From assembly GCA_947561715.1 (NCBI GenBank), contig OX387200.1:13270501-13334500 (forward strand): DNA of 64,000 bases, written 5' to 3'. The notes beneath the pieces are model-generated. The model was not told the DNA's origin. It was given only the letters and a program-made list of their open reading frames with translations, and did no database searches. Numbering within the stretch: position 1 is the stretch's first letter; every line of letters begins with the position of its first letter. The position numbers and the translations under genes are program-made. This document shows positions 41,560 to 47,734 of this stretch, piece after piece. The stretch comes from Ascidia mentula (Eukaryota; Chordata; Ascidiacea; Phlebobranchia; Ascidiidae).

Positions 41560-42575
41560 TACTCTCATTTGTCCTGACGAAAGCACTGAAGGTGTCCTGA
41601 AGAAGGTCGATTGCATGAAGACCGAAACGTCGATCAAATAGGGGAGATCGGGGATACCTCGGACCAGGTATTTTACGTCACAATTAGGTATTGTTAAGAC
41701 ACTTTTACAAAAGCTTTATGTCTCCATCAAACGTTTACAGGAACTTTGGAATTAAATCATGTCTGCTAAAAAAGTTATAATCGAAAAAGTCAATTTATCA
41801 GTGAAACCAAGTTTTTCAATTTCTATGTGGAAGGTTATATATCTGTCACAGTTAATCAAAATGCAGTAATTTTGGGTTGATTGCATAATCAAATATGTAT
41901 TCTTGGATAGGCCAATGATGATTTTGTGTCTTTAAAAATACTGCCATAGTTTAAGAATTTCTATGTCGTCACGTGGTCGGGGATACTTCGGACATCATGG
42001 CAAAAAATTGCGAGTAGGCAACAATTTTTGAGTTTTATGAAAAATTATCGGTCATAGTAGAGAATAAACAGAGGCTGGATGAAATGATTGAATTTTGGCA
42101 GTAAGAAAAAGTCCCAAAGATAAAAAATCGTTTGTTGAGTCTAAAATCTATGATATCCGTGCTGCCGTAAAACATACACGATTTACCCAAAGCATGAACG
42201 TGTGGAAGGGTCGAAACGATAAGTGGCCACGCCCCGATTCCTGAAAGCTTGAATGATATTTTATTCGCTAATGCCCCAATGCTGATATTGCGCCAAGTTT
42301 GATTTCCGTTATTTGTTAAATAAACAAAAAAAAACGTCTGGTAAAACTTGCTGTCCGAGATATCCCCAGTGACGACATTTGAGACCTGTTTAAAAAACGG
42401 GCTGAATAAACATTTTTAGTGAGCTAAAACGAGCGTTGTACTACTTACAACAAAATAAAATTTAAGAATGTGGTTCATAATTTAACAAAAATATGAGCAA
42501 TTTTCCCAAAACCGTCCGAGCTATCCCCGGTCTCCCCTAAATATTTTTTGCCAAAAGAACTTTGAAATTGACTTA
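41560..42575 (+). repeat. Penelope-type repeat split by a MITE
   Basis: The left part (to 41640) reads GTCCTGAAGAAGGTCGATTG...GACCGAAACGTCGATCAAATA. The right part (from 42538) reads TAAATATTTTTTGCCAAAAGAACTTTG. Joined, these match the layout of 58,679-58,730 (GAAACGTCGACAAAGTGTATTATTTTTTGCCAGAAGAGCTTTTG) and of 60,720-60,770. The intervening 897 bp is a later insertion. Confidence 0.7.
41641..42537. mobile_element. TA-flanked MITE, 897 bp
   Basis: The left terminus GGGGAGATCGGGGATA and right terminus TATCCCCGGTCTCCCC are inverted repeats with one mismatch, flanked by TA on both sides (41639-41640, 42538-42539). This is the signature of a Tc1/mariner-class insertion. Imperfect similarity of the ends continues a few bases further (CTCGGA / TCCGAG). 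The interior is non-coding and also present, degraded, at 29815-30480. Confidence 0.85.
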
Positions 42576-42719
42576 TTTTTTATTACTATTTTTATGCGTG
42601 GCAGCGTCAGCAGCAGGTTATGTCAACCTAGTATCACAGCAATTTGAATAAGAATTATATGAAACAACAAAGTTTGTTCAATTTTTATTAAGTTCAAATT
42701 TTTTTACACGGCGTTTTGT

Positions 42720-42945
42720 ACCAACGAGACGCTAGTCGACAAAACTTTTTTCCAGTCGACAAAACTTTGAACGCTTATAACTTTGCCGTTTCTTAACGGA
42801 TCTCGATGATTTTTGCACAAGTTGCATGGAATGGCATGTAGTTTCAAAGTATAAAAACAATTAAAAATTTTTAACGATTTATGGAACGAATATTAATGCA
42901 TATTGTCATAAATCGGTCATAACTACTTTTATCGAACCGCGGCCA
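42720..42945 (+). repeat. Left terminal inverted repeat
   Basis: About 226 bp matching, in inverse orientation, 46985-47211. It includes two direct copies of AGTCGACAAAACTT near the tip, and GATCTCGATGATTTTTGCAC and CATGGAATGGCATGTAGTTT further in. Only scattered substitutions distinguish the two arms. Confidence 0.85.
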
Positions 42946-43222
42946 CGACTATTCATACACCGTTGGAAACTGCATTAAAAACCCTTTCCAACCATACCAA
43001 ACTTGTCTAATTGTCGCACCTGAAAGAACTCCTACTGATCGAATATTATTCATAACCGTCATAAAAATATACACTTTTTCGTTTATAAGTCTTTTCACAG
43101 TGTCGGGGCCACGACTATTTATACACCGTTAAAAACTACATTAAAAACCCTTTCCAACCATACCAAACTTGTCTAATTATCGCATCTAAAAAAAAATGTA
43201 CATTTTTTCGTTGTCAAGTCTT
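42946..43222 (-). repeat. Inverted partial array of the 166-bp unit
   Basis: About 1.7 units of the repeat at 46088-46978, in opposite orientation. Shared blocks include GGCCACGACTATTCATACAC, CCCTTTCCAACCATACCAAA and TATACACTTTTTCG. The second unit is more diverged and partly deleted. Confidence 0.85.
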
Positions 43223-43529
43223 TTTACAGGTTCATCAGAAATAATTTTAAACATATGTAACATATTCTTACCTATCCCAAAATAGAAGCATGTATCTGTA
43301 CTCCACAAGCTTCTCCTTTTGTCAGAGCTATGTAGACTTATTGCACAGTTTGAGAACAATTTTAAAAGTCTATAATATTTCCTACACGTCCTATAACCTA
43401 AATAAGCAAAATGTTATTATTAGTAAGTTTGAATAAACAATAATAAACTGTTCAATTATGAAAACTTCGAAGTTAACGTTACGCAACATTTTTTCAAAAT
43501 TGCAAAACCTGAAAAACAAAAACAAATAA

Positions 43530-44237
43530 TTAGCATTGGCCGCAAAACCAAGGGACATCTTCAATTACGGCGGATTCAGGCAAACTGGTTTTAAGACATG
43601 TTGGGTGATACCATTCTTTACATTTAGAACACTCTATTAACATCTGCTGTTTGTTTTCAGCCAACCTGCAATTACAATAGATGCTTATTGGTTCAATTTT
43701 AGGTTTTCTATTTATAATGAGCTTCTTACGCTTGAAAATTTGATCAAAATGTTGGCGCTTAAACATTTTCGTTAATTCTCGCCTTAATGTATTTTCGTCG
43801 TAGGTTAGCTGATCAGGTTGAATATTCATACATAAGGCTACCGCAAATGCAATCGCCATAACGCCACAATTGCCAGCACCAGTTTGCCTCGGTATATTCG
43901 GAAATTCCATGCGTAAATAATTCGCGGTATTATGTTTAAAAAGCTTTGAAATGGCAAACTGGTCGTCCGAGTCATACCTAAAAAATGCGCTATCATAAAT
44001 TTGAACACTATTGTCATCTGTTGAAAATACGTTTGACGCCGTAACCCAATGATCATCGTGCACATCAATAATTTGGACAAATTTGCGTTGGGGGGTGTAA
44101 GTGGGCACGGGGTCCATTTGCCGGGAGTAAGCTAAAACGCTCTGCAGTCCGTCTATGTGGGGGAATTGCTGCTGCAAAATATGTTGGGCCGAATCTATAT
44201 GTTTATCACTGAGCGCTTGCAAAACATTTATGATCAT
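43530..44237 (-). CDS. Ulp1-like (C48) cysteine protease fused to PHD finger
   Basis: One uninterrupted 235-codon frame. Residues ~25-165 resemble the catalytic core of Ulp1/SENP-type peptidases, which cut SUMO-like conjugates. The triad and oxyanion residues are all present: His63 (DVHDDHWVTASN), Asp82 (VQIYDSAFF), Gln118 (NIPRQTGAGNCG) and Cys124 (GNCGVMAIAFA). A C4HC3 PHD finger follows at 188-235: YCNC, ECSKCKEWYHPTC, PWFCGQC, ending exactly on the last Cys. Ulp1 plus PHD fusions are typical of genes carried by eukaryotic DNA transposons. The frame is preceded immediately by TAA, so the ATG at 44237 is the only start. A spliced upstream exon (for example 44553-44500, EVDRGFLPSFAEI) is possible but could not be joined. 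No inactivating lesion is seen. Confidence 0.75.
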   Translation of the reverse strand: MIINVLQALSDKHIDSAQHILQQQFPHIDGLQSVLAYSRQMDPVPTYTPQRKFVQIIDVHDDHWVTASNVFSTDDNSVQIYDSAFFRYDSDDQFAISKLFKHNTANYLRMEFPNIPRQTGAGNCGVMAIAFAVALCMNIQPDQLTYDENTLRRELTKMFKRQHFDQIFKRKKLIINRKPKIEPISIYCNCRLAENKQQMLIECSKCKEWYHPTCLKTSLPESAVIEDVPWFCGQC

Positions 44238-44641
44238 TTACTTCGTTTATTTTGTGTTGGGAAGTTTTATCCGATTTTTTTGACTTATTTGTTATATCTG
44301 AAGAACGCAAACTTGCCACAGGCGTTTGAAAATATTTCCCAATTTTTTTATCTACGGAGTAACCTCGTTTCCGTCGCCCCTCCTCGCATGCGAATATATG
44401 GGATCGTTTTTGGTCCCTGTGTGCGAACGGATGTATAATTTTCGCGATACAACACACATTTGTACGCGACACCACACACAAGGCAAGGTGTCTTACCTGG
44501 GCGGAATTCTTTATAATTTCAGCAAATGATGGTAGAAAACCACGATCAACTTCCTAAACAACACCAAGAGCCGAATAAAGCAATCGTCTAATCTGCATAT
44601 TAAACGCATCGTGACCTACCGCCACATTTGGCACGACATCT

Positions 44642-45810
44642 TCATCTTTCTCCGTTGGTCCATTTTTTTAACCACTGGTATCGTCGGTCTGTTGGGTTCC
44701 TCCGGCGTCGCTTGAAACCCAAGAGCCGGAACTCGTTCTTCTCGGGAACTCGTACAATGCCTCTTTTAACTTTTTTCTCCACCTGTGAAAGAAACAGTTT
44801 TGAACCTTCCTCAGTTAAGTGAATACCATCCTTTGCAAGGAAATGCATTGGAATCGCAGTTTCTATGAACGTAAAGTTCATTTCCGCGGCGATTTGTTGC
44901 AGTTTCCTGTTCAAATCACCAACGAAAAACCCTCGTCTTCCAGCAAGTGGCAGTATACCACAGTGGTAAACCTGTAAAATACAGATAAATAATTAAAACC
45001 AAAACCAACCACATTTACATGTTTACTGCATTCTTATCCTATTGTTCCACATATTATCTTTTTAAAACTTTATACTTATCCATGTAACTTCCATAACCAA
45101 TAGCGGAGATAAATATTGTGACGGATGACGGCGAGGCGATAAGACTAAACACGTTAGTCCCACAAGTTTTGCGATAAGAGGTTTCCTTTGTAGTTAGACG
45201 AATAAAGCCGTTGGATTGAAAGATCTATTATCTGATTAGTTTTTTTCATTTTGTTAAACAAGTTTTTCTGAACAAGTTACAAAGCAAAACAATGGACAAA
45301 AGTTAACAAGCTTACTTTGGCTTTGGGGTAGAGAACATTCACCAAGTACATGAGCTCCTTTGTTAGCTCCACGACTTGAGCAATGCTTTGGTAGCTCCCG
45401 TGCATGTTGAGGATGTTGTTCGTACCGAAGCTTACGACGACAGCTTCGACATCCTCAATAATGGGAGTGTTTGATAGCTCGACAATCGCGTGGTCGATCC
45501 TCCCTCCAGGCATGCTCAGAGCCGCAAAGTCTAAACAAAAGTTATCGCTTGGTTTAACTGTAAACGGAGATACAAACCGCCTGGCGTTGCTGTCCGAGAG
45601 GAACAGCAACCGATTCCGAACACTCTTCTCCGGAATCCTCCACTTTGTCTGCTTGCCAGAGATACCCGTTTTGTACCTCTCGACTCCACAAGACTGTAAA
45701 ACGATCCAACGTCAGCAACCGCAACAATTTATCAACAAAAGATTAAGCATATCACATACCTTTCTCTGGCTGCAGACGATCTTAAAACCATTGAACATGG
45801 AAGAAGACAT
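44642..45810 (-). CDS. SGNH/GDSL-like hydrolase in transposon
   Basis: Three exons join in phase: 45810-45760, 45693-45316, 44971-44642 (252 aa). The SGNH blocks are present: block I LLFLSDSNARR (nucleophile Ser52), Gly in SMPGGRID, block III VVSFGTNNI (Asn at 109-110), and block V KDGIHLTEEGSKLF with Asp191 and His194. The family hydrolyses esters (lipids or acetylated sugars). SGNH domains are known in ORF1 of some LINE retroelements, but here the gene sits inside a terminal-inverted-repeat element. The C-terminus is very basic (FKRRRRNPTDRRYQWLKKW), suggesting nucleic-acid binding. A poorly resolved downstream exon (EKDEDVVPNVA, ~44620) lies in another frame. Introns are intact and catalytic residues conserved, so it may still be expressed. 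Confidence 0.75.
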
Positions 45811-46087
45811 TTCAAAACTTTTCAAAAGAACTTGCAAAAAGATAGCTGTAAATTTTGAAAGTACTTCGTTGTGAAAACGAAATGGATCGAAGCAGCATTT
45901 TGCCTAGGTTTATATAGAGTTTCTTAAAAATACAAAAAAATAATTGATTAACTCTGATTGGAAAACTTGCCGCACGACTACAAAAAAGTACATGCTACAA
46001 CAACAACCTTGCCACAAATGAATTTTGCAAATGTTTTTTCAAGAAATCAAATATTATGATAAATTCCACACAATAAAAACAAAATCG

Positions 46088-46978
46088 GTTATGAATAATA
46101 TTCGATCAGTAGCCGTTCTTTCAGATTCGACAATTAGACAAGTTTGGTATGGTTGGAAAGGGTTTATAATGTAGTTTCCAACGGTGTATAAATAGTCGTG
46201 GTCCCGAAACAGTGAAAAGACTTATAAACGAAAAAGTGTATATTTTTATGACGGTTATGAATAATATTCGATCAGTAGCCGTTCTTTCAGGTGCGACAAT
46301 TAGACAAGTTTGGTATGGTTGGAAAGGGTTTTTAATGTAGTTTCCAACGGTGTATGAATAGTCGTGGCCCCGAAACTGTGAAAAGACTTATAAACGAAAA
46401 AGTGTATATTTTTATGACGGTTATGAATAATATTCGATCAGTAGGCGTTCTTTCAGATTCGACAATTAGACAAGTTTGGTTTGGTTGGAAAGGGTTTATA
46501 ATGTAGTTTCCAACGGTGTATAAATAGTCGTGGCCCCGAAACTGTGAAAAGACATATAAACGAAAAAGTGTATATTTTTATGACGGTTATGAATAATATT
46601 CGATCAGTGGGCGTTCTTTCAGGTGCGACAATTAGACAAGTTTGGTATGGTTGGAAAGGGTTTTTAATGTAGTTTCCAACGGTGTATGAATAGTCGTGGC
46701 CCCGAAACTGTGAAAAGACATATAAACGAAAAAGTGTATATTTTTATGACGGTTATAAATAATATTCGATCAGTAGGCGTTCTTTCAGATTCGACAATTA
46801 GACAAGTTTGGTATGGTTGGAAAGGGTTTTTAATGTAGTTTCCAACGGTGTATAAATAGTCGTGGCCCCGACACTGTGAAAAGACTTATAAACGAAAAAG
46901 TGTATATTTTTATGACGGTTATGAATAATATTCGATCAGTAGGCGTTCTTTCAGATGCGACAATTAGACAAGTTTGTA
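46088..46978 (+). repeat. 166-bp tandem array, about 5.4 copies
   Basis: Units start at 46088, 46254, 46420, 46586, 46752 and 46918 (start string GTTATGAATAATATTCGATC), an exact 166-bp period with only a few substitutions per unit. The array lies just inside the right terminal inverted repeat, and the last unit merges into it. Units alternate between GATTCGACAATTAGAC and GGTGCGACAATTAGAC variants, which suggests a higher-order 332-bp duplication. Open frames here are repeat artefacts. Confidence 0.92.
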
Positions 46979-46984
46979 TGAATA

Positions 46985-47211
46985 GTCGTGGCCACTGTAA
47001 AAGTAGTTATGACCGATTTATGACAATATGCATTAATATTCGTTCCATAAATCGTTAAAACTTTTTAATTTTTTTATATTTTTTGAAACTACATGCCATT
47101 CCATGCAACTTGTGCAAAAATCATCGAGATCCGTTGAGAAACGGCAAAGTTATAAGCGTTCAAAGTTTTGTCGACTGGAAAAAAAAATTTGTCGACTAGC
47201 GTCTCGTTGGT
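46985..47211 (-). repeat. Right terminal inverted repeat
   Basis: Inverse of 42720-42945; see the 4.49-kb element. It ends GTCTCGTTGGT before the GGTTTTGT flank. Confidence 0.85.
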
Positions 47212-47734
47212 GGTTTTGTCCACAAAATATCTAAATTGTACAGGTCGAAACAGTGTGTAAACCTAAATTATATTGTCATAGTTTGAGGTTATATGTGTTA
47301 TATCGCGGTCCTATGTCCCTTCACCACTGTCAACAATTCGGTATTGCGAATACAAGTTTTACCTGAACCCTGTGCTGTCTGAATTTTGCTTTTGCCTTGG
47401 TTGGTTGTCCTACTGCTGTATGAAACTAGAATGTTCTATTTGAATAAGGACATTTTAAGACCAAAAAGTCGTTTTCTGCTAACGTTGTTTCCTGCTGTCT
47501 GATTGATTGGGAAAAAGTCGATATTTTTTTACTCTGGTTCCACAATAAGGAGAATTGTGTATTTAATTTATGTGTTTTTGGTCGCTTAAACCGCAGCGCC
47601 TTCGGAATAAAGTTGATGTGTTCCTTTTGACCAGAGTGGTTTGCGCGTTTCCATTGCAGAAATCCCCGCTGTTGCACTGCCCGGGCGCAAGAAGTCACGC
47701 CTGCCTGACTGCCAAGGGCAGCGCAACATACAGA

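Follow-up and report, generated by a model that had tools for sequence, protein, structure and literature searches.

Positions 42720-47211 of the window (the whole stretch of 64,000 nucleotides of Ascidia mentula DNA that was analysed) constitute a single transposon insertion of 4.49 kb whose ends recur genome-wide. We interpret it, with a probability of roughly 0.87, as a derivative, shortened by internal deletion, of a Foldback-like cut-and-paste DNA transposon with two genes, one for an SGNH hydrolase and one for a Mutator/IS256-like DDE transposase. The sequence itself shows the ends and their duplications, the order of the genes, the deletion, and copies of several forms.

The outermost 240 bp of the left end (42720..42959, plus strand, with the tip ACCAACGAGACGCTAGTCGACAAAAC) and 237 bp of the right end (46975..47211, minus strand) pair in inverted orientation at 93.8% identity, in agreement with the terminal inverted repeats of about 230 bp proposed in an earlier, sequence-only reading of this DNA. 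Inside the ends lie tandem repeats with a 166-bp unit: two partly degraded copies on the left (42913..43233, plus strand), delineated from repeat families and inverted pairs, and at least five units on the right (46086..47049, minus strand), where one repeat family comprises five 300-bp windows that lie in register 166 bp apart. These repeats extend the inverted portion to about 43233 and 46086. The flanking target-site duplication, CGTTTTGT at 42712..42719 and GGTTTTGT at 47212..47219 (no strand assigned), matches at 7 of 8 bp; this imperfect 8-bp duplication, already noted with its one mismatch, is supported by sister copies whose duplications of 8 or 9 bp are perfect. Each 200-bp flank has one match in a search of the 196-Mb genome and is single-copy, so that the genome offers no empty-site paralogue for comparison. 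The left end has at least 79 matches genome-wide (40 of the 199 candidates scored), 43 of at least 140 bp, which were used further, and 36 of at most 90 bp, which were left out. Many of these short matches are inner repeats within the same copies. The same ends were thus found at other genomic places, a check that the sequence-only reading had proposed, and its suggestion of one terminal-inverted-repeat unit holding both a Ulp1 and an SGNH domain is borne out by the ends, the duplications and the single-copy flanks.

Target duplications of the sister copies measure 8-9 bp. Fifteen rows comprise seven perfect 8-bp duplications, four perfect 9-bp ones (representing three insertions: L050, L017, which is A-rich, and L007/L008), two that match at 7/8 and two without a duplication; four further end pairs yielded one duplication at 8/9 and three without any. 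The inverted ends range from 237 bp to about 3.7 kb across copies and are of the Foldback type, long and built from tandem repeats, as seen in the 166-bp units of the window element, in the repeats at the ends of L049, L050 and L051, and in the 187/604-bp units of the distant family D. Inverted ends with target-site duplications at unlinked sites, as found here, are what defines class II terminal-inverted-repeat transposons.

Comparison with other copies reveals how the window element came to lack a complete transposase. Its Ulp1/PHD frame, which begins at 44237, becomes homologous to other copies at residue 9, and the homologous part (43530..44213, minus strand) consists of a Ulp1-like C48 protease domain and a C4HC3 PHD finger. 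Judged by this homology, the frame is no complete gene but the stump left from the C-terminus of a long transposase, and a separate cargo gene encoding Ulp1/PHD was rejected on the same comparison. Just upstream lies a further transposase remnant (DKKIGKYFQTP..., 44214..44352, minus strand) in a frame different from that of Ulp1; about 106 bp of L028 are absent at 44214 in the window copy, and this further deletion puts the stump out of frame with the remnant. At the main deletion junction (44352..44355, minus strand) the spacer following the SGNH gene is joined to the transposase tail and the DDE body is absent. The element is non-autonomous, as had been considered, its DDE body being deleted and its stump frame-shifted. 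The catalytic residues H63, D82, Q118 and C124 of the protease and the complete PHD finger (C188, C190, C203, C206, H211, C214, C232, C235) are all present as previously described, and the HDQC set recurs in all 11 family-B copies examined. The Pfam profile PF02902 scores the window domain below the cut-off (E 0.0074) and those of L050 and L049 above it. The Ulp1 comparison used 56 of 103 rows, leaving out second pieces of a locus, weak rows and PHD-only rows.

The SGNH gene, on the other hand, is separate and apparently intact, so that only one of the two genes claimed in the sequence-only reading holds as such. In the three-exon model, all on the minus strand, exon 1 (45760..45810) contains the start codon, exon 2 (45316..45693) the catalytic Ser52 (SDSN), SMPGG and GTNN at 107, and exon 3 (44642..44971) DGIH at 191 and the stop. 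Both introns are GT-AG and flank exon 2 in phase 0. The motifs described before are thereby all retained, and the Ser, Gly, Asn and Asp-x-x-His blocks of SGNH/GDSL hydrolases are present in the window protein. PF13472 matches the protein at E 4e-7 with 31.1 bits, just under the 32.9 cut-off. A PDB sequence search returned 13 matches up to E 10, the best of which (0.051) was an unrelated oxidase, and none of 48 candidate homologues sought through the exon-2 frame of L050 was significant. A possible core promoter, TATATAAA (45909..45916, minus strand), is located about 100 bp before the ATG, and the spacer between the stop codon and the deletion (44355..44641, minus strand) also occurs in the SGNH-carrying L031, L034 and L036. 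The dN/dS ratios, calculated for 15 loci (including L035 and L048 with one exon-2 stop codon each, skipped), range from 0.10 to 1.18 in 28 pairs within family A, exceeding 0.5 only where dS is at most 0.10, and from 0.10 to 0.49 in 21 pairs within family B; between the two families synonymous sites are near saturation. Judging from these ratios the gene is under purifying selection between copies, which implies that its product matters; that product, as predicted, probably has esterase activity and acts in trans.

Several element forms and parallel deletion forms are present elsewhere in the genome. The window element and L065 form family A, L050 and L063 family B and L082 the distant family D, and in all three SGNH stands upstream of the transposase. 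In sister copies SGNH is followed by a transposase with Ulp1 and PHD at its C-terminal end, and Foldback-like ends of tandem repeats with ACCA tips enclose the two genes. Family D measures 16.6 kb and combines an SGNH gene with an open 2094-residue frame containing PHD, DDE, Ulp1 and ubiquitin protease domains. Roughly 39 places in the genome have SGNH like that of family D. The longer copies that the sequence-only reading proposed to look for thus exist as transposase-bearing relatives elsewhere in the genome, and its ‘no visible transposase’ is due to the internal deletion. The SGNH comparison used 53 of 82 rows, the group at 28% identity being left out. PHD domains have reportedly been described in CR1-like elements (Kapitonov and Jurka 2003); for the SGNH and PHD matches at 28% identity descent from LINEs was rejected, as L082, the locus of that group that was read, has a DDE transposase.

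Could the two domains have come together in some other way? Catalytic residues in both genes would also be expected of two host genes lying by chance between inverted repeats with no mobile unit, but the occurrence of the ends at many places, the duplications that accompany them at unlinked sites, the single-copy flanks and the parallel deletion forms elsewhere make this extremely improbable. Recent capture of a host SGNH gene by the window element, as a Pack-MULE-like passenger, deserves somewhat more consideration, yet appears unlikely: gene capture by Mutator-like elements is reportedly known, the introns are such as a host gene would have, and SGNH is absent from L064 and L049, but the gene adjoins the transposase in families that share only 27% identity in that protein, the last intron occupies an identical position in the window element, L050 and L082, and selection between copies appears purifying. 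Furthermore, most of the closest SGNH matches with scanned surroundings lie within or adjoin the same kind of ends, although none were found within the 3.3 kb read around SGNH of L037, L038 and L039. The presence of SGNH beside the transposase in both the window and sister families and the distant family D, with a common intron position, suggests inheritance: the lineage appears to have passed SGNH on as its second gene rather than acquired it in a one-off capture, and the capture of an esterase by this one element, as suggested earlier, is improbable.

What class does the transposase belong to? It has an N-terminal cysteine-histidine region that is, by eye, zinc-finger-like. The DDE core has a CxxH motif between the second D and E, with D106, D181, C227, H230 and E426 invariant in all five aligned sequences, E426 being assigned by motif only. 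The core appears to fit the Mutator/IS256 group best, and the duplications fall within the 8-11 bp of Mutator (MULE) elements. It is less probable, though a serious contender, that the transposase is not of Mutator type and falls in the hAT group, the P group or a separate, unnamed superfamily lying between the two. Duplications of 8 bp are a hallmark of hAT and P elements, the first Foldseek match is Hermes (E 2.2e-4), and Pfam MULE (PF10551) gives no match to the transposase; its 49 matches in the genome include none at the loci where transposase-bearing copies of these elements lie. Spacing in P0002 also departs from that of four MULEs of this genome (D1-D2 75 versus 67-69, D2-C 46 versus 21, D2-E 245 versus 113-115); the long D2-E spacing would be accounted for by extra sequence inserted between CxxH and E. 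Profile comparison by hhalign gave E 0.0016 at 16% probability and E 0.0022 at 13%, and the first AlphaFold model of P0001 has a pLDDT of 42.5. hAT elements are defined by strict 8-bp duplications and short ends, whereas 9-bp duplications and the long ends described above are found here. The KDZ transposase domain, the Pfam marker of Zisupton elements, gave no match even with E values of 1 or 5 allowed, and neither KDZ nor Kolobok entries occur among the fold matches listed, an absence that does not count against either group.

Under the preferred reading, a deleted cut-and-paste transposon with a Mutator/IS256-like transposase, the complete element has long inverted ends of tandem repeats starting with ACCA, an intron-bearing SGNH gene and, farther downstream in the same orientation, a large transposase that comprises a cysteine-histidine N-terminus, DDE core, Ulp1 and PHD. 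Transposase from another copy would bind the repeated ends, excise the element and insert it at a new site through cuts staggered by 8-9 bp. The window copy may have lost its transposase body, for example when gap repair was aborted, and have been mobilized in trans. From what is known of these domain families, the PHD finger, whose sequence is most similar to those of H3K4me readers, could tether the complex to chromatin, and Ulp1 could free repair or silencing proteins at the ends from SUMO. The esterase might serve horizontal spread, host-lipid signalling or the removal of acyl marks from the transposase or host factors. On a broader view, which we raise only tentatively, families A, B and D together make up an as yet unnamed clade of giant animal DNA transposons with Foldback ends, which may rank as a superfamily placed between Mutator and hAT. 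The usual equipment of its members would be an SGNH esterase together with a transposase that reads chromatin and cleaves SUMO and, in family D, ubiquitin. The esterase would then carry out a conserved step in the transposition or spread of the DNA for which known cut-and-paste elements have no equivalent.

The association of Ulp1 and PHD with animal Mutator transposases is already published: PMC2836005, in the part available, cites Repbase Reports on Ulp1 domains in hydra and lancelet transposons of the Mutator (MuDR) type and aligns Ulp1 and PHD domains including those of Mutator transposases (Fig. 1e). These elements resemble the window element in their Ulp1 domain, but that part ascribes to them neither SGNH nor a ubiquitin protease nor ends of tandem repeats. 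Ginger1, described in the same text, likewise has Ulp1, PHD or OTU tails behind the transposase, with ends of 44-270 bp; its core is Gypsy-integrase-like and no SGNH is mentioned there. The proposal that ubiquitin and SUMO pathways serve transposition also appears in it (PMC2836005). The family D transposase, with PHD, SUMO-type protease and ubiquitin protease domains, offers a natural test case. Tm1, a Mutator/Foldback element of root-knot nematodes, shares composite Foldback-like ends, many non-autonomous forms and 8-10-bp (mostly 9-bp) duplications, seen in 45 of 53 elements, and its Mutator transposase is of the Phantom subclass, in which transposases carry an N-terminal FLYWCH finger; its host differs, and the portion of that paper at hand mentions no SGNH, Ulp1 or PHD (PMC3169594).

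In open-access PMC text, no SGNH partner of a Mutator-type element was found among the matches listed, and papers combining the relevant terms mention SGNH, in the parts available and among the matches listed, only through work on fish texim. The latter is an intron-bearing SGNH hydrolase gene in Helitrons, an association reported from fish and not from other animals and read as capture; both cases join a DNA transposon to an intron-bearing SGNH gene, but the texim carrier is a rolling-circle element (PMC4021074, as far as its available part describes). Elsewhere GDSL/SGNH esterases are known from LINE ORF1 (CR1, L2, RTEX), rotifer LTR elements and Athena/terminons, and membrane targeting and RNA-particle assembly have been proposed for those of LINEs; here too the esterase is an accessory protein of a mobile element, but the carriers covered by the accessible portions of these sources are all retroelements (PMC3905857, PMC5408684, PMC6431247). 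In the ascidian elements the enzyme seems to be encoded by a conserved second gene in a lineage of cut-and-paste DNA transposons, which make no RNA particle, and a general explanation of esterase retention must therefore cover this case.

The element's boundaries at 42720 and 47211, as drawn in the sequence-only reading, are correct. The terminal 240 bp on the left and 237 bp on the right are inverted copies of each other at 94% identity, each flank of 200 bases finds a single match in the 196-Mb genome, and the 8-bp target duplication carries one mismatch. The left end, by contrast, has at least 79 matches in the same genome. Internal to the inverted ends, a 166-bp unit is tandemly repeated, with two copies at the left end and five or more at the right. 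Among the 15 rows with both ends known, the window included, the duplication is perfect over 8 bp in seven and over 9 bp in four, agrees at 7 of 8 positions in two and is absent from two; the four 9-bp rows represent three insertions, L007 and L008 being the same one. Four additional end pairs gave 8 of 9 at L059/L060 and no duplication at L053/L054, L061/L062 and L049. Directly to the left of the element, at 41639-42539, we also observe a 26-bp inverted pair (TAGGGGAGATCGGGGATACCTCGGAC, 92%) 849 bp apart, possibly another small transposon.

The SGNH gene lies on the minus strand in three exons (45810-45760, 45693-45316 and 44971-44642) separated by phase-0 GT-AG introns, with TATATAAA about 100 bp upstream of the ATG. 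Its predicted product of 252 residues carries Ser52, the Gly block, Asn109 and Asp191/His194, and reaches E 4e-7 against PF13472, slightly below the cut-off. The Ulp1/PHD frame had been taken for a gene; the residues named for it are all present, but the frame is homologous, at 53-58% identity, to the C-terminal tails of long frames, three of which measure 942, 955 and 1248 residues. Compared with another locus, L028, the window copy is missing about 106 bp immediately before the Ulp1 part; ahead of this gap the remnant DKKIGKYFQTP is fused at 44355/44352 straight to the spacer behind SGNH, and the surviving tail is in a different frame from the remnant. The transposase body is missing from the window copy. 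The window element is an ordinary deletion derivative, and its interest is in the lineage that it reveals.

In family B, whose ends read ACCAGAGGGATG, the 7.5-kb copy L050 has a 9/9 duplication, ends of about 1 kb built of repeats, and an SGNH gene followed by a 955-residue transposase frame with an overlapping 236-residue frame ahead of it; the corresponding stretch of L063 is a single frame, so that L050 carries one frameshift. The decayed family-A copy L065 has both SGNH and DDE. The best named homologues of the transposase come from the ascidians Styela clava (41% identity) and Phallusia mammillata (45%) and the fish Triplophysa rosa (33%). Ordinary MULEs coexist in this genome, since the Pfam MULE model has 49 matches at other loci, in frames of at most 994 residues. 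Deletion forms of A and B comprise SGNH with the transposase N-terminus (L063), transposase without SGNH (L064), SGNH alone (L032, L042, L048), the tail alone or nearly so (L010, L017, L018) and short forms of about 757 bp (L007); they repeat the history of the window copy by other routes.

Purifying selection acts on SGNH exon 2, with dN/dS of 0.10-1.18 over 28 pairs within A (above 0.5 only where dS is at most 0.10) and 0.10-0.49 over 21 pairs within B. Exon 2 was compared at 22 loci representing 20 places. Full-length alignments free of stops come from L030, L031, L032, L033, L034, L042, the reference copy L045 and L043, which shares its place with L063; at the remaining loci exon 2 is cut, slightly short or interrupted by a stop. 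The family-B Ulp1 tail keeps H, D, Q and C in 11/11 copies, the 55 pairs among them giving a median dN/dS of 0.41 (range 0.08-0.95).

Some copies show further peculiarities. The SGNH-only element L032 (C2:14436333-14439647) carries SGNH exon 2 at 1417-1794 and a second, inverted exon-2 fragment at 2231-2091; an RNA copied from it could fold into a hairpin and so supply small RNAs that silence the transposon family. Frames at L052:2213-3349 and L065:8232-8999, within or beside element copies, resemble Penelope-type reverse transcriptase; a Pfam scan of L052:2714-3349, the sole such frame scanned, gave no match. At C69:15.13-15.29 Mb, DDE fragments of one family, 53-57% identical to family B, cluster at five places, perhaps reflecting local amplification or transposase-derived genes.

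Following SGNH matches of 28% identity leads to the distant family D, whose giant transposon at C69:17990947-18007587 (L085, L083, L082, L084) is more striking than the window element. It spans 16,641 bp, its tips read ACCA, and it is flanked by the 8-bp duplication GATTAAAG, which is perfect. The ends, about 3.7-3.9 kb long, are built of 187- and 604-bp repeats, and the element contains an SGNH gene and a single open frame of 2094 residues. This frame has a PHD finger close to its N-terminus, a DDE region matching the family-B transposase (27% identity, E 3e-39) and the fish protein P0003 (E 4e-60), and a domain of the ubiquitin-specific protease type (PF00443, E 4e-11); Ulp1 (PF02902) reaches E 7.7e-5 with the piece scanned alone and is not listed in the scan of a longer 1666-residue part. 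The family-D SGNH as query returned 80 rows, 46 of which, at about 39 places, show 50-100% identity; because several of these score identically on different chromosomes, a recent spread is suggested. A third family, L081 (C69:9195800-9204799), has a 1434-residue frame with Ulp1 and PHD regions at 27-29% identity, flanked by two sets of large repeat blocks in inverted orientation, the repeats being spaced at about 57 bp; no SGNH was seen within 9 kb.

In exon 2 the family-D SGNH shares about 30-38% identity with its counterparts in A and B, and in exon 3 it is 26% identical to the window SGNH; its last intron nevertheless follows the same codon, in the same phase, as in A and B. This argues that the common ancestor of the three families probably already had SGNH, or that the gene was transferred among them as a unit. 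The occurrence of SGNH in A, B and the distant D, with its last intron at the same codon, does not fit a host gene captured on one recent occasion.

We propose that transposase from complete copies would recognise the repeated ends, excise the element and reinsert it at cuts staggered by 8-9 bp, as the DDE core and the target duplications suggest. Similar PHD fingers occur in SHL, EBS, PHF2 and PHF8, which read methylated H3K4, and the finger of the transposase may therefore direct its complex to open chromatin. Ulp1 may strip SUMO from host repair or silencing proteins, from which the ubiquitin-specific protease and Ulp1 of family D may remove both ubiquitin and SUMO. The existence of copies without SGNH suggests that its product would act in trans, with protein-bound acyl groups and membrane lipids as the leading candidate substrates.

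Among the matches listed in searches of open-access text, none describes SGNH as a regular component of a transposon with terminal inverted repeats. Earlier publications already place SGNH genes in LINEs, in rotifer LTR and Athena elements and in fish Helitrons (PMC3905857, PMC5408684, PMC6431247, PMC4021074). A published study likewise describes Ulp1 domains in hydra and lancelet Mutator elements, and its alignment of Ulp1 and PHD domains takes in Mutator transposases (PMC2836005).
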